Shown here: positions 14,310-32,516 of the stretch, piece after piece
How the letters are laid out: each line of letters starts with the position of its first letter
How positions within the stretch are numbered: the first letter of the stretch is position 1
Assembly: GCA_944332555.1 (NCBI GenBank)
Contig: CALVKF010000001.1
Span: 1-38,451 of the forward strand
Reading direction: 5' to 3'
Origin: an uncultured Bacilli bacterium
GTDB taxonomy: Bacteria > Bacillota_I > Bacilli_A > RF39 > UBA660
DNA length: 38,451 bases
The notes under the pieces: model-generated
What the model saw: only the letters and a program-made list of their open reading frames with translations
The model's database searches: none
What the model was told of the DNA's origin: nothing
Program-made: the position numbers and the translations under genes

Positions 14310-14543
14310 TTATAAAATTCCACCATATTTTTTTTCAATTCCCCCATATTGTTCTTTTGTAATTCTACCAGCGATAAGTAAGTTTTTAGCTCCAGTTTCT
14401 ATTCCTTCATAACAGGGATCATACATAATAAAATTATTTTCTTTATCATATTTTTCTAATTCTTTAATTCTTTCTTTCATTCCACTAGGTAATGATTCTT
14501 CATCAAATACAATAGAATCATCAATAAAATTCCATTTGCTCAC
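14310..14543 (-). CDS. Uncharacterised small protein with SHOCT-like C-terminus
   Basis: From GTG 14543 the product has 77 residues: an acidic middle part (GMKERIKELEKYDKENN) and a C-terminal segment GAKNLLIAGRITKEQYGGIE. That segment resembles the short SHOCT-type helix pair (leucine, then a gly-x-ile-thr-x-glu-glu/gln pattern). I do not recognise a specific family. The start is inferred because GTGAT lies 9 bases before this GTG, with TATAAT further upstream, the layout seen before several other genes here. It follows the interrupted XRE regulator on the same strand and may belong to the same accessory unit. Confidence 0.45.
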   Translation of the reverse strand: MSKWNFIDDSIVFDEESLPSGMKERIKELEKYDKENNFIMYDPCYEGIETGAKNLLIAGRITKEQYGGIEKKYGGIL

Positions 14544-14593
14544 TATAATCACTTGCTAAAATTATAGCAAAAAAGTATTAAAAAAGAAATAAC

Positions 14594-14768
14594 TTATGCT
14601 ATTTCTTTAATTATTTTTACAACATCTTCGCAACTTATTTCAAGTATTTCAATAAGTAGTTTTAATGTTTTTAAACTAGGCTTACTTTCACCACTTTCAA
14701 TTCTTTGCACTTGTCTAGGTGTAATATTTAAAAGTTCTGCTAGTTCTTCTTGAGTAATATTCTTTTTT
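14594..14768 (-). pseudogene. XRE-family regulator, 3' part (split by the IS element)
   Basis: Read on the minus strand, this stretch encodes KKNITQEELAELLNITPRQV, then QRIESGESKPSLKTLKLLIE, and a further 17 residues to the TAA at 14594-14596. This is the body of a Cro/C1-type helix-turn-helix. There is no start codon: the frame hits a stop just upstream, inside the inserted element. The missing N-terminus (MLKEYRRTK) is found on the far side of the tnpB element at 16137-16163. Joining the two restores a single frame of about 65 residues. Confidence 0.8.
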
Positions 14769-14805
14769 ATATAATAGGAAAGTCATACTTTTTTAAATAA
14801 AACCA

Positions 14806-14834
14806 TTGACATCCAAACAACAGTTTGATACAAT
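14806..14834 (+). promoter_or_regulatory. tnpB promoter
   Basis: TTGACA (14806-14811), 17 bases, TACAAT (14829-14834), with TG one base before the -10. A CAAAC/GTTTG hairpin occupies the spacer. Confidence 0.75.
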
Positions 14835-14858
14835 TGATTTACAAGGAGGAAATTTGGT

Positions 14859-16010
14859 ATGACTACTATTTTAAAAGGTTATCAATTTAGATTATATCCG
14901 AGTGATGAACAAAAAAAGTTAATCAATCAAACTATTGGTTGTTCTAGATTTATATATAATCATTTTTTAGAAGAACGAATAAATGAATATAAAAAAACAG
15001 GTATATCAAAAACTTGTTATGAACAAATAAAAGAAATACCACAATTATATAAAGATTATCCCTGGTTAAAAGAAGTAGATAGTTGCAGTTTAAGAGCACC
15101 TGTATTTTATTTGGAAAATGCATATCATAGATTTTTTACTCAAAATAATGGTTTTCCTAAATTTAAAAATAAAGATACAGGTAATAGTTATAAAACCAAT
15201 AATATTAAAAATACTTATAAAGATAAAAACTATGAAAGTATAAAAATAGATTTAAAAAATAGAACAATAACATTACCAAAGTTAAAAAAAGTACCTATCA
15301 GAGGTTATAGAAATAAAGAAGTCTTTGTCGGCGATATAAAAAGTGCAGTTATAAGAAGAGAAGGGCTTAAGTATTATGTAAGTGTATTAGTAGAAGTTCC
15401 ACTAATACTACCTCCATTTCAACCTAGAAGTATTGTAGGATTAGATTTAGGTATAAAAGATTTAATAATAACTAGTCATAATGAAAAGATAGAAAATAAT
15501 TTAGAATGTACAAATATTAATAAACGAATCAAGGGATTGCAAAAGGCTCTTGCAAGATGTCAAAAAGGAAGTAAAAATAGAGAAAAAATAAAATTAAAAA
15601 TAAAACGAGCATATATGAAATTAAAGAATATCCGTAAGCATTTAATCCATGATATAATAAATAAAATAGTTAAAGATAATGATATTATCGTAATGGAAGA
15701 TTTAGATATTAAAGCAATGTATCAAACAAGAAGTATAGCAAAACACCTAGTGAATATCCCATTAGCTGAAATAAAACGAGTCTTGGAATACAAGTGCCTT
15801 TGGCAAAACAAAAAACTAATAACGATAAATAGATATTATCCAAGTAGCCAAATTTGTTCAGTATGTGAATATCAAAATAAAAAGTTAAAAGATTTAAGTA
15901 TAAGGAATTGGGTTTGTCCTAAATGTGGATATATACATGACCGTGATATCAATGCTAGTATTAATATAATGTTTGAAGGATTAAAAATATATATGCAAGG
16001 TTTAGTATAG
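14859..16010 (+). CDS. tnpB: TnpB, RNA-guided endonuclease of an IS605-type element
   Basis: TnpB proteins are RNA-guided DNA nucleases, ancestors of Cas12, that cut uninterrupted target sites and help the element persist. The 383-residue product looks complete. The N-terminal helix-turn-helix domain is KGYQFRLYPSDEQKKLIN. RuvC-I is GLDLGIKDLIITS (catalytic Asp), RuvC-II is IVMEDLDIKAM (Glu), a zinc ribbon has C-x2-C pairs in CSVCEYQ and CPKCGY, and RuvC-III is HDRDINASINI (Asp). All three catalytic acids are present. ACAAGGAGG precedes ATG 14859. It lies alone, without tnpA, inside a broken XRE gene. Confidence 0.93.
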   Translation: MTTILKGYQFRLYPSDEQKKLINQTIGCSRFIYNHFLEERINEYKKTGISKTCYEQIKEIPQLYKDYPWLKEVDSCSLRAPVFYLENAYHRFFTQNNGFPKFKNKDTGNSYKTNNIKNTYKDKNYESIKIDLKNRTITLPKLKKVPIRGYRNKEVFVGDIKSAVIRREGLKYYVSVLVEVPLILPPFQPRSIVGLDLGIKDLIITSHNEKIENNLECTNINKRIKGLQKALARCQKGSKNREKIKLKIKRAYMKLKNIRKHLIHDIINKIVKDNDIIVMEDLDIKAMYQTRSIAKHLVNIPLAEIKRVLEYKCLWQNKKLITINRYYPSSQICSVCEYQNKKLKDLSIRNWVCPKCGYIHDRDINASINIMFEGLKIYMQGLV

Positions 16011-16136
16011 ATAAAAATAAATAAAATGAAAATAGTAGGGTGGCGACCATCCGAAGTTGGTCTGTGGAGAGTTTAAAGAACTCTATGAAGCAGAAATGCC
16101 TTGTGGTGATACAAGGATAGTCAAAATAATTTTGAC
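16011..16136 (+). ncRNA. Omega-RNA (reRNA)-like scaffold at the right end of the tnpB element
   Basis: The non-coding stretch after tnpB has the familiar 3' motif of omega-RNAs, GAAGCAGAAATGCC, followed by a stem CCTTGT-GGTGAT-ACAAGG and ATAGTCAA. An upstream stem AGAGTT/AACTCT (16068-16084) and a terminal palindrome GTCAAAA-TAA-TTTTGAC (16120-16136) also fit a folded RNA. In characterised systems the RNA overlaps the tnpB 3' end and its guide is the flanking DNA just past the right end. Here that would be the first codons of the XRE gene. The RNA's 5' limit cannot be set from sequence alone. Confidence 0.65.
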
Positions 16137-16163
16137 TTTTGTTCTTCTATATTCTTTTAGCAT
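16137..16163 (-). pseudogene. XRE-family regulator, 5' part
   Basis: Minus-strand ATG at 16163 encodes MLKEYRRTK, a typical opening of a short Cro/C1-type regulator. It runs directly into the right end of the tnpB element. The rest of the gene is at 14594-14768. A GGCGATC motif precedes the ATG and could serve as ribosome-binding site. Confidence 0.75.
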
Positions 16164-16176
16164 AAATGATCGCCTA

Positions 16177-16245
16177 GACATATAATGTCATAAAACAAAT
16201 AGTAATGCCACGACATTTGGTGTCAAATAATAGACATGCTATGTC
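16177..16245. promoter_or_regulatory. Three 13-bp operator-like palindromes
   Basis: GACATATAATGTC (16177-16189), GACATTTGGTGTC (16212-16224) and GACATGCTATGTC (16233-16245) share the half-site layout GACAT-N3-ATGTC; the middle copy has one G for A. They lie between the leftward XRE gene and a rightward small ORF. The first would cover the XRE promoter. The third overlaps a possible -35 (TAGACA, 16231-16236) of a rightward promoter with TACTAT at 16253-16258. A 9-base repeat, CCACGACAT and ATGTCGTGG (16208-16216, 16241-16249), joins the last two. They are probably binding sites of the XRE protein. Confidence 0.6.
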
Positions 16246-16297
16246 GTGGTGAGTACTATAAAACAATGCTAAACTTTTCATAGTAGGTGAAGAACAA

Positions 16298-16433
16298 ATG
16301 AATAAGAAAAAACTAACATTAATTGGAGTTCGGACATTTAACATTAATTTTTACCTTATTTACTACAATTAATCACAAATTGTCCGATAAAATATTTTCT
16401 ACGATAAGCGAATTTATCGGATATATCCGATAA
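16298..16433 (+). pseudogene. Small ORF with apparent frameshift
   Basis: ATG 16298, behind a good AGGTGA site, opens MNKKKLTLIGVRTFN and stops at 16372 after 24 residues. One frame over, from about 16329, the DNA reads FGHLTLIFTLFTTINHK and SDKIFSTISEFIGYIR to a stop at 16433. That second stretch is hydrophobic and protein-like. A single-base indel near 16323-16330 would join the two into a membrane-type peptide of about 45 residues. I do not recognise it. It is divergent from the XRE gene and shares the operator region. Confidence 0.35.
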
Positions 16434-16434
16434 A
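16383..16434. repeat. Nested inverted repeats with a 22-bp perfect palindrome
   Basis: TCCGATAAA occurs at 16383-16391 and 16426-16434, and its complement TTTATCGGA lies between at 16413-16421. The middle copy can pair with either neighbour. The right pair, with TATA in the centre, forms a perfect 22-base palindrome (16413-16434). An outer pair, CGGACA (16331-16336) and TGTCCG (16381-16386), encloses the region. It could be a protein-binding site or a mutually exclusive hairpin switch. Confidence 0.6.
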
Positions 16435-16450
16435 TCAAGATTGTAATTTA

Positions 16451-16475
16451 ACCATAGAATATCTATGGTTTTTTT
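16451..16475 (+). terminator. Rho-independent terminator
   Basis: ACCATAGA (16451-16458) pairs with TCTATGGT (16462-16469) across ATA, followed by TTTTTT. It closes the accessory region ahead of the pilC-like gene. Confidence 0.85.
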
Positions 16476-16489
16476 CATAAATTTAACAT

Positions 16490-26058: not shown

Positions 26059-26395
26059 GGCATATATATCCTTATTATATATAAATATAAGGATTACACG
26101 CGTATTATATCCTTATTAAAATATAAATAAGGATATACCTTTAATCATTTTAAATTTTTAATAAATAATAATAAATTAATAATTCATATTAAATTTAAAT
26201 TTAATTTTAAAATTAATAATTAATAATTTGATATTGCATAGATATCAGATAATTATAGTTAAGAAAAGAGATTAATTAAATTAAAGCATTAAAATAAGCC
26301 ATAAAATCAGCTATTATTTAACAAAATAAAGTTTTAAATAATATATATTATGTTAACTAAATTGTTGGAATAAATAAAAAGATAGATTGTTATTT
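26059..26395. other. AT-rich intergenic region between convergent genes
   Basis: No gene is supported in these 337 bases. The left part holds two related hairpins (26068-26136), the middle is almost pure A/T, and the right end holds the terminator of the minus-strand phosphoesterase gene. Confidence 0.7.
26068..26136. repeat. Two related palindromic repeats
   Basis: ATCCTTAT (26068-26075) faces ATAAGGAT (26087-26094), and 39 bases on ATATCCTTATT (26107-26117) faces AATAAGGATAT (26126-26136). Both share ATATCCTTATT and TAAGGAT cores around A/T loops. No T run follows, so they are not typical terminators. Confidence 0.6.
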
Positions 26396-31376: not shown

Positions 31377-31407
31377 AAAAAAAGACAAGTTTATGATGCT
31401 TGTCTTT
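31377..31407 (-). terminator. Terminator of the retron transcript
   Basis: On the minus strand AAAGACAAG pairs with CTTGTCTTT around a short loop (31407-31399 with 31389-31381), followed by a T run. It begins at the reverse transcriptase stop codon. Confidence 0.9.
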
Positions 31408-32359
31408 AACACATAACAATATCTTTGTTCCTTAAATAATCTAAATATTCTCTAAATTCTTTATTATCACATTCAACTTGTAAAACAAAATTAATTTTTC
31501 CTATTAAAGTATTTATATATTTATTTTTATTAGTTATATTTAAATATTTTAAATGATTATCTAGACCATACTTTTTTATATAATACATCTCTTGTCTAAT
31601 TTTTTTCTTTATCTGTTTTTTTATACTTAATTTTTCATTTACAACAATACCTGTAACTAATTGTCTTTTACTACTATTTATAACTCTAATTTTATCATAA
31701 TTAAGTTTAAAATGATATTTTTTTAGCAGATTTCTTACTATAACTATAAGATCTTTAGGATTAAAATCACCAGAGAATGTTAAATCATCAGAATATCTAG
31801 TATAACTTATATTTAAATTATCACAATACTTCCCTATTTCTTCATCAAAATCCCTTAAAATTAAATTAGATATATAAGCAGCAGTTGGTGTTCCTTGTGG
31901 TAGTTCATTATTATACATACAGATATTAGTAAGTAAAATACCTATCTTTTTAGGATATAGTGTTTCATTAAAACAAGTATTATATACCATATTAAAATTA
32001 ATACTAGGAAAGAAATCTTTAATATCTAGTTTTAAAATAATTTTTTTATTAATATGAACTTTTGCATTATCCACTAAACTCATCCCCTTTTGATAAGCGG
32101 TTGCATACTTAGATACTCTCATTTCTTCTAATATGTTTTTTAAAATATTTTGTTGCACAGTTTTAAGTAAGTTACTTGGTTCATAAATTGTTCTAAAACT
32201 ACCGTTTTTCTTGGGAATTTCAAAGCTTATATAATTAGCATCTAAATTATTAGATAAATAATATAGTGTTTTCTTAACCTTTTTTATATCATTAGTTTTA
32301 AGCAAATTAAAAGAAAGTAAAAATTCATCATACATTTTATCAGTTAAATGATCCCACAT
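31406..32359 (-). CDS. ret: Retron-type reverse transcriptase
   Basis: The 317-residue product has the RT palm motifs and both retron hallmarks. Region X has NAKVH (98-102, the NAxxH motif). Catalytic Asp112 lies in LKLDIKDFFPSI, QGTPTAAYISNLI begins at 155, and YSDD (189-192) replaces the more usual YADD before LTFSG. The VTG motif of region Y is at 235-237 (QLVTGIVVNE). A normal thumb domain ends the protein, with no fused effector. Retron RTs reverse transcribe part of an adjacent RNA into multicopy single-stranded DNA. ATG 32359 follows AAAGGAAGTGA. The RNA gene lies immediately upstream on the same strand. Confidence 0.92.
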   Translation of the reverse strand: MWDHLTDKMYDEFLLSFNLLKTNDIKKVKKTLYYLSNNLDANYISFEIPKKNGSFRTIYEPSNLLKTVQQNILKNILEEMRVSKYATAYQKGMSLVDNAKVHINKKIILKLDIKDFFPSINFNMVYNTCFNETLYPKKIGILLTNICMYNNELPQGTPTAAYISNLILRDFDEEIGKYCDNLNISYTRYSDDLTFSGDFNPKDLIVIVRNLLKKYHFKLNYDKIRVINSSKRQLVTGIVVNEKLSIKKQIKKKIRQEMYYIKKYGLDNHLKYLNITNKNKYINTLIGKINFVLQVECDNKEFREYLDYLRNKDIVMC

Positions 32360-32375
32360 AATTTTCACTTCCTTT

Positions 32376-32516
32376 AAAAGCAATACTAAATATTATAAAT
32401 ATGGAAATGTACTTTACATAACGCAGTTATGGGTAGTTACATTGGAATATTTATACAATATATTTACTAAATCTCCACTTAAACGACTCGCTTAAATATA
32501 GGACGCTATTGCTTTT
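32376..32516 (-). ncRNA. Retron msr-msd RNA
   Basis: The 141-nt transcript region is bounded by perfect 10-base complements: a1 AAAAGCAATA (32516-32507) and a2 TATTGCTTTT (32385-32376). After a1, TTTAAGCGAG resembles the retron priming site, with G32491 a candidate branch guanosine. The msd part folds into one long hairpin: TATAAATAT (32455-32447) with ATATTTATA (32402-32394), a TCC/TCC internal loop, AATGTA (32443-32438) with TACATT (32411-32406), and an apical CATAAC-TGC-GTTATG (32431-32417). Order a1-msr-msd-a2-RT is that of known retrons. The exact msr/msd boundary is not fixed. Confidence 0.88.

Follow-up and report, generated by a model that had tools for sequence, protein, structure and literature searches.

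A three-site palindrome array beside a TnpB-split XRE gene, and a candidate family of surface-gene switches in uncultured Bacilli

The split regulator gene, its flanks and the palindromes

The window analysed here is a stretch of 38,451 nucleotides from the genome of an uncultured Bacilli bacterium (contig CALVKF010000001.1), the relevant features of which are collected in Table 1. A small XRE gene on the minus strand, starting at 16163, is split after codon 6 by a TnpB element, and the intact homologue of a related genome aligns on both sides of the insertion, in agreement with an earlier sequence-only reading that had taken the gene to be interrupted. The C-terminal piece scores 53.7 bits against Pfam HTH_3 (gathering score 23), placing it among the XRE/HTH_3 proteins. 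The inserted element is of the IS605 type, having TnpB domains and occurring as a multi-copy element with fixed ends, with near full-length copies at 95-96% identity elsewhere in the same genome. Such copies number three in this genome and at least seven in the related genome G013, and no second transposase ORF was seen in the window copy (14771-16147).

Close intact homologues of the regulator emerged when the C-terminal piece was used as query against 59 genomes. The nearest is a 64-residue protein of G013 (locus L050), whose gene has four of the palindromic sites before it; the G013 contig appears in a scan of named genomes as the uncultured Bacilli MAG BRZ_NS__bin93.

Table 1. Coordinates of the features at the split XRE locus (window numbering)
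Feature	Position	Strand	Basis
80-codon ORF downstream of XRE gene	14310..14552	-	retained in window; G013 has a HipA-like kinase after it
Remainder of split XRE gene (helix-turn-helix)	14594..14770	-	PF01381 HTH_3 2.1e-14; 98% identical to G013
TnpB element inserted in XRE gene	14771..16147 (right end 16145-16147)	+	interrupts alignment to L050
tnpB gene	14859..16010	+	OrfB_IS605 6.5e-22; Cas12f1-like TNB 1.5e-22
First six codons of split XRE gene (MLKEYR)	16146..16163	-	aligns to intact L050 homologue (G013)
Operator site nearest XRE gene (family position 4), over its extended -10	16177..16189		exact GACAT-N3-ATGTC, GACATATAATGTC
Extended -10 of XRE promoter, TGACATTAT	16182..16190	-	same element and position in G013
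Second operator site (family position 3)	16212..16224		one mismatch, GACATTTGGTGTC
Distal operator site with candidate -35 (TAGACA) of divergent promoter	16233..16245		exact, GACATGCTATGTC
Stump of divergent surface-protein gene, 24 codons, about first 11 homologous	16298..16372	+	weak match to L050, syntenic place
147 nt in place of remaining surface-protein gene of G013	16330..16476		L050 homology resumes at 16477

The flanks of the locus are 88-94% identical between the window and G013, and on the divergent side G013 carries an intact gene of 568 codons for a large, N-terminally anchored surface protein. The small divergent ORF noted earlier does exist, but it is actually a 24-codon stump of this surface-protein gene, positions 16298-16329 aligning to its start in a short match (E 0.015) at the syntenic place. 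A surface protein, rather than a lysis or toxin gene, was therefore the most likely target of the switch. The 147-nt stretch at 16330-16476 is unmatched in L050 and has no clear match among the other relatives' loci compared; within it lies a perfect 24-bp palindrome (16412-16435), which was not found in the loci fetched from other genomes. On the other side, the 80-codon ORF of G013 is followed by a gene for a HipA-like kinase (L050:6672-7595; PADLOC PDC-M03A, 1.2e-35); no HipA-family kinase gene was found in the window.

Between the regulator gene and the stump lie three palindromes, with centres 35 and 21 bases apart, exactly as first described. Their supposedly identical half-sites were upheld in part: the cluster is real, but the middle site (16212) has GTGTC in place of ATGTC. 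Exact copies of GACAT-N3-ATGTC occur twice in the 1.3-Mb genome, at 16177 and 16233 (the reversed control pattern, none), and sites at one mismatch number 28 against 6 for the same control. Over the whole window, sites at up to two mismatches show no enrichment (15 seen, 13.2 expected), and since this looser count equals chance the signal lies in clustering rather than in number. Dinucleotide shuffling of the 151-nt gap, repeated 20,000 times, never produced three sites at up to one mismatch, and three within 69 nt arose in none of 300 shuffled windows; a motif-free search for any 5-bp palindrome with one shared half-site yielded three copies in none of 400 shuffles.

The proximal site is centred 20 nt before the ATG of the XRE gene, a position shared with the relatives, and the 35 bp to the second site is the commonest step among family modules. 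The proximal site covers the extended -10 of the XRE gene, and the distal site covers the TAGACA of a promoter-like TAGACA-17-TACTAT (16231-16259) facing the divergent gene, so that the outer two sites overlap candidate promoters in both directions, as had been proposed.

Site geometry and promoters across the regulator family

It had been anticipated that the motif would recur next to intact homologues, and at seven of the eleven loci L004-L014 the XRE gene is indeed preceded by exact sites. The sites are mostly local to the module: seven related genomes that have such a module contain 16 exact copies, 10 of them inside it, nine genomes without a module of the window's class hold two between them, and two further module-bearing genomes (G009 and G015) hold none.

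With a profile built from 13 regulators, matches were obtained in 17 of 30 genomes of the genus and 38 of 386 of the family, and, at a stricter cut-off, 44 of 288 of the order, while the scan of named genomes added Clostridia MAGs with similar arrays. From the genus search, which listed 33 matches, the window itself and one match cut at a contig end were excluded; 16 family matches at 2.5e-18 or weaker and three order matches were left out of the set, and 39 of the 80 loci of the named-genome scan were parsed, most of the others duplicating known places. Altogether 121 modules were parsed and 108 kept, each with at least 150 nt upstream and a distinct protein of 50-80 residues. The intact relatives are mostly of 62-72 residues, with one domain and five helices.

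Sites were found at fixed places across the 108 modules, over the extended -10 of the XRE gene and over the divergent -35. A site stands 16-24 nt before the regulator ATG in 59 modules and 50-60 nt before it in 64, as compared with 2.4% of control slots (n=756). In the Bacilli family the sites are commonly spaced by 34-35 or 24 bp; in several Clostridia every step is about 35 bp. All four family positions are filled in eight modules and none in 11. An extended -10 precedes the regulator in 97 of the 108 (9 in shuffles), located at the place of the proximal site, and it persists in many modules devoid of that site, e.g. TGAAATAAT. On the divergent side, a TTGACA/TATAAT promoter is present in 64 modules (10.5 in shuffles), 11 of them with perfect elements, and no recognisable one in the other 44. 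In 30 modules a site centre lies no more than 7 nt from the divergent -35, the offset being 5 or 5.5 in nearly all of them. With the motif recurring upstream of intact homologues at a fixed geometry and overlapping predicted promoters, the three palindromes in the window are, as the sequence-only reading had it, to be regarded as the operator array of a putative XRE switch.

The half-sites change with the class of regulator, being GACAT/ATGTC or class variants thereof, and the analysis of site enrichment by class covered 80 of 82 modules. Proteins with glutamine or histidine after Arg25 (residue 26) have 13-bp sites in 51 of 53 cases and those with asparagine or threonine 12-bp sites in 37 of 37, giving agreement in 88 of the 90 determined modules among the 108 (L060 and L179 are discordant). 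Residue 26 was nevertheless rejected as the cause of operator length: two or three changes on the regulator tree suffice, so that cause is not separable from ancestry, which explains the pattern equally well. The set of modules remains a natural experiment in DNA recognition, in which operator length (12 or 13 bp) tracks the residue after Arg25.

In seven loci (L066, L067, L069-L071, L073 and L079), a 420-codon gene resembling that of a Y-family DNA polymerase comes after the regulator gene and hints at a link to DNA damage.

Of 88 divergent genes, 76 encode a protein with a hydrophobic stretch at its start and 12 do not, compared with 200 of 503 control ORFs that have one; a further 14 host modules, outside the 88, have no divergent ORF. 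Domains were scanned in 54 of the 84 divergent proteins listed, with fn3 and DUF6273 each present in five; others carry Ig-like, InlB B-repeat or camelysin domains. In PMC10743442, DUF6273 is likened to a C-type lectin domain.

Comparison with known regulators

In the PDB, the regulator profile matches C.Esp1396I (3clc, 1.6e-8), SinR (1b0n, 6.4e-7) and CylR2 (1utx, 2.6e-6), and it also reaches HipB and the ICEBs1 regulator. TAL-effector entries at the top of that search were discarded as repeat artefacts, no stretch of them passing alone. The predicted structure (mean pLDDT 90.5) has C.BclI, ClgR, DdrO and CylR2 as Foldseek neighbours, all at E above 0.001.

SinR of Bacillus subtilis is an XRE repressor of surface or matrix genes that has a second domain and an antirepressor, whereas the protein of the window's family ends with its DNA-binding domain. 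CylR2 of Enterococcus faecalis, a 66-residue Cro-like repressor beside a divergent promoter, is alike in its small size and arrangement and differs in its target, which is the cytolysin. The C proteins (C.Esp1396I, C.BclI and C.AhdI) are likewise small XRE regulators of one domain, each served by an operator of several palindromic sites close to its own promoter; the profile match to C.Esp1396I is full-length, and C proteins are the top fold neighbours, albeit at Foldseek E values above 0.001. The C-box core is, however, GACT/AGTC in PMC5282649, as against GACAT/ATGTC or class variants here, and no restriction-modification gene was recognised beside the XRE module in the window, or in the relatives, whose neighbouring genes were read by eye. 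RstR of CTXphi and Pf4r of Pf4 share the trait of a small repressor with operator sites beside early phage genes, although RstR's own model (NCBIfam NF041951) gives 42.5 bits against a cut-off of 80. In PMC8402870, Pf4r is reported to act on host genes too and its site to be non-palindromic, unlike the palindromes of the window. By analogy, the regulator would act in the manner of C proteins or small phage repressors, while having neither the C-box nor a passing match to RstR.

The proposed switch, its phage copies and the alternatives

The 64-residue single-domain XRE protein is probably a local, autoregulated switch for the divergent gene of a large surface protein, with the palindromes as its operators. 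A dimer would bind each palindromic site; at the proximal site, it would block the regulator's own extended -10 in a negative feedback, and over the divergent -35 it would block the surface-protein promoter, thereby holding the gene off. The site some 35 bp upstream of the proximal one, about 44 bp upstream of the expected start of the XRE transcript by our reckoning, may from its position aid autoactivation of the regulator. The array geometry, the divergent surface gene and the homologues of the regulator make an autoregulated repressor of the surface gene the likely original role. In the window itself, the TnpB element has split the regulator, and the surface gene has been lost except for its start, leaving a relic; the switch is likely defunct on both sides and no longer works as a unit. 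The earlier suggestion of lost control is plausible, even if little is left to be controlled, because this genome has a single further match to the XRE profile at E 1e-14, with operators of another class. That match (L061, on contig C48 of the window's own genome, G000) is a second family module with an apparently intact regulator and a 12-bp CGGT/ACCG site.

The same regulator family, with similar arrays, is carried by six inovirus-type prophages (L088, L093, L109, L118, L127 and L273), so that the phage-like character first suggested for the switch has gained ground. Where enough sequence is available, these encode a small coat-like and a long secreted protein along with a Zot-like ATPase (the sequence of L109 ends before the Zot-like gene), and a dif-like end, TTATGTTAACT, adjoins the regulator in five of the six. 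The dif-like ends and the coat-like and secreted roles are presumed from familiar patterns; the coat-like and secreted proteins gave no PHROG or Pfam match, and the Zot-like ATPase of L127 matches PHROG 197 (2.3e-9) and falls below the cut-off of Pfam Zot. Among 20 regions fetched from Zot-like matches in the genomes, one (L273) carries the regulator. In a viral collection, the regulator profile gave eight weak loci and a Zot-like query none. Two further inovirus-type prophages (L267 and L268) lack this XRE protein and have at the corresponding end a small protein, presumably a ribbon-helix-helix regulator. A dif-like 28-mer, GTTTTAAATAATATATATTATGTTAACT, is present in the window at 26331-26358, and similar ends flank inovirus prophages in relatives.

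On the regulator tree (65 columns, weak in detail), the six prophages are scattered and require six changes, at least five of them forced by well-supported branches; shuffled prophage labels give an equal number of changes. Exchange of the regulator between phage and host would be the simplest reading. A bolder version, in which dif-integrated inoviruses and the surface-protein genes of their hosts, uncultured gut Bacilli, have repeatedly exchanged the regulator-operator switch and each controls the other, is speculative and rather unlikely. As specificities are shared, a host copy could protect the cell from a newly arriving inovirus, and a copy in a prophage could shut down surface proteins of its host; were this exchange true, losing the host switch, as here, would alter both the surface and the susceptibility to phage.

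The prophages invite the alternative that the locus is the remnant of an inovirus prophage, with repressor gene and array left over from a lysogeny switch. Beyond the shared family and arrays, the dif-like site about 10 kb away at 26331, where such prophages sit, and the sub-threshold resemblance to RstR would fit, but the closest relative has a surface-protein gene and not phage genes at the same place between shared flanks, no Zot-like gene was found in the window's genome (G000), and the nearest prophage regulator (L109) falls beside rather than inside the G013 regulator clade, on a branch that is not starred in the tree; this origin is accordingly given little credence. It is about as improbable that the array is the operator of a toxin-antitoxin operon of the HipB-HipS-HipT shape, in which the XRE gene is followed by the 80-codon ORF and the HipA-like kinase. 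Such an order does exist in G013, where the kinase matches the PADLOC candidate family PDC-M03A, and the window retains the 80-codon ORF, yet that ORF has no HipS-like match save those below cut-off and the array faces the divergent gene. The toxin-antitoxin-like character suggested earlier thus has the kinase of one relative in its favour and has been lowered, because no such kinase was recognised by eye downstream of the other parsed modules. Far less credible still is that the palindromes are RNA or DNA hairpins (a terminator or an attenuator) instead of protein sites: the arms CCACGACAT ... ATGTCGTGG can pair across two sites, but no T-run terminator occurs at the array, an Rfam search of the window gave no match, and what is conserved is the spacing of the sites and not a long-range pairing, the half-sites varying with the class of regulator.

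The surface-gene switch, as a family, was not described in the literature searched, where the exact motif string gave no paper. With it, a motif seen in isolation becomes part of a testable family that has short regulators, arrays that can be read by eye, variable surface-protein targets and copies in filamentous phages, and it offers a handle on the control of surface genes in uncultured Bacilli with small genomes. Elsewhere in the window, a reverse transcriptase is encoded at 31406-32383 on the minus strand, its closest PADLOC model being retron Ec107-like (2.7e-120).
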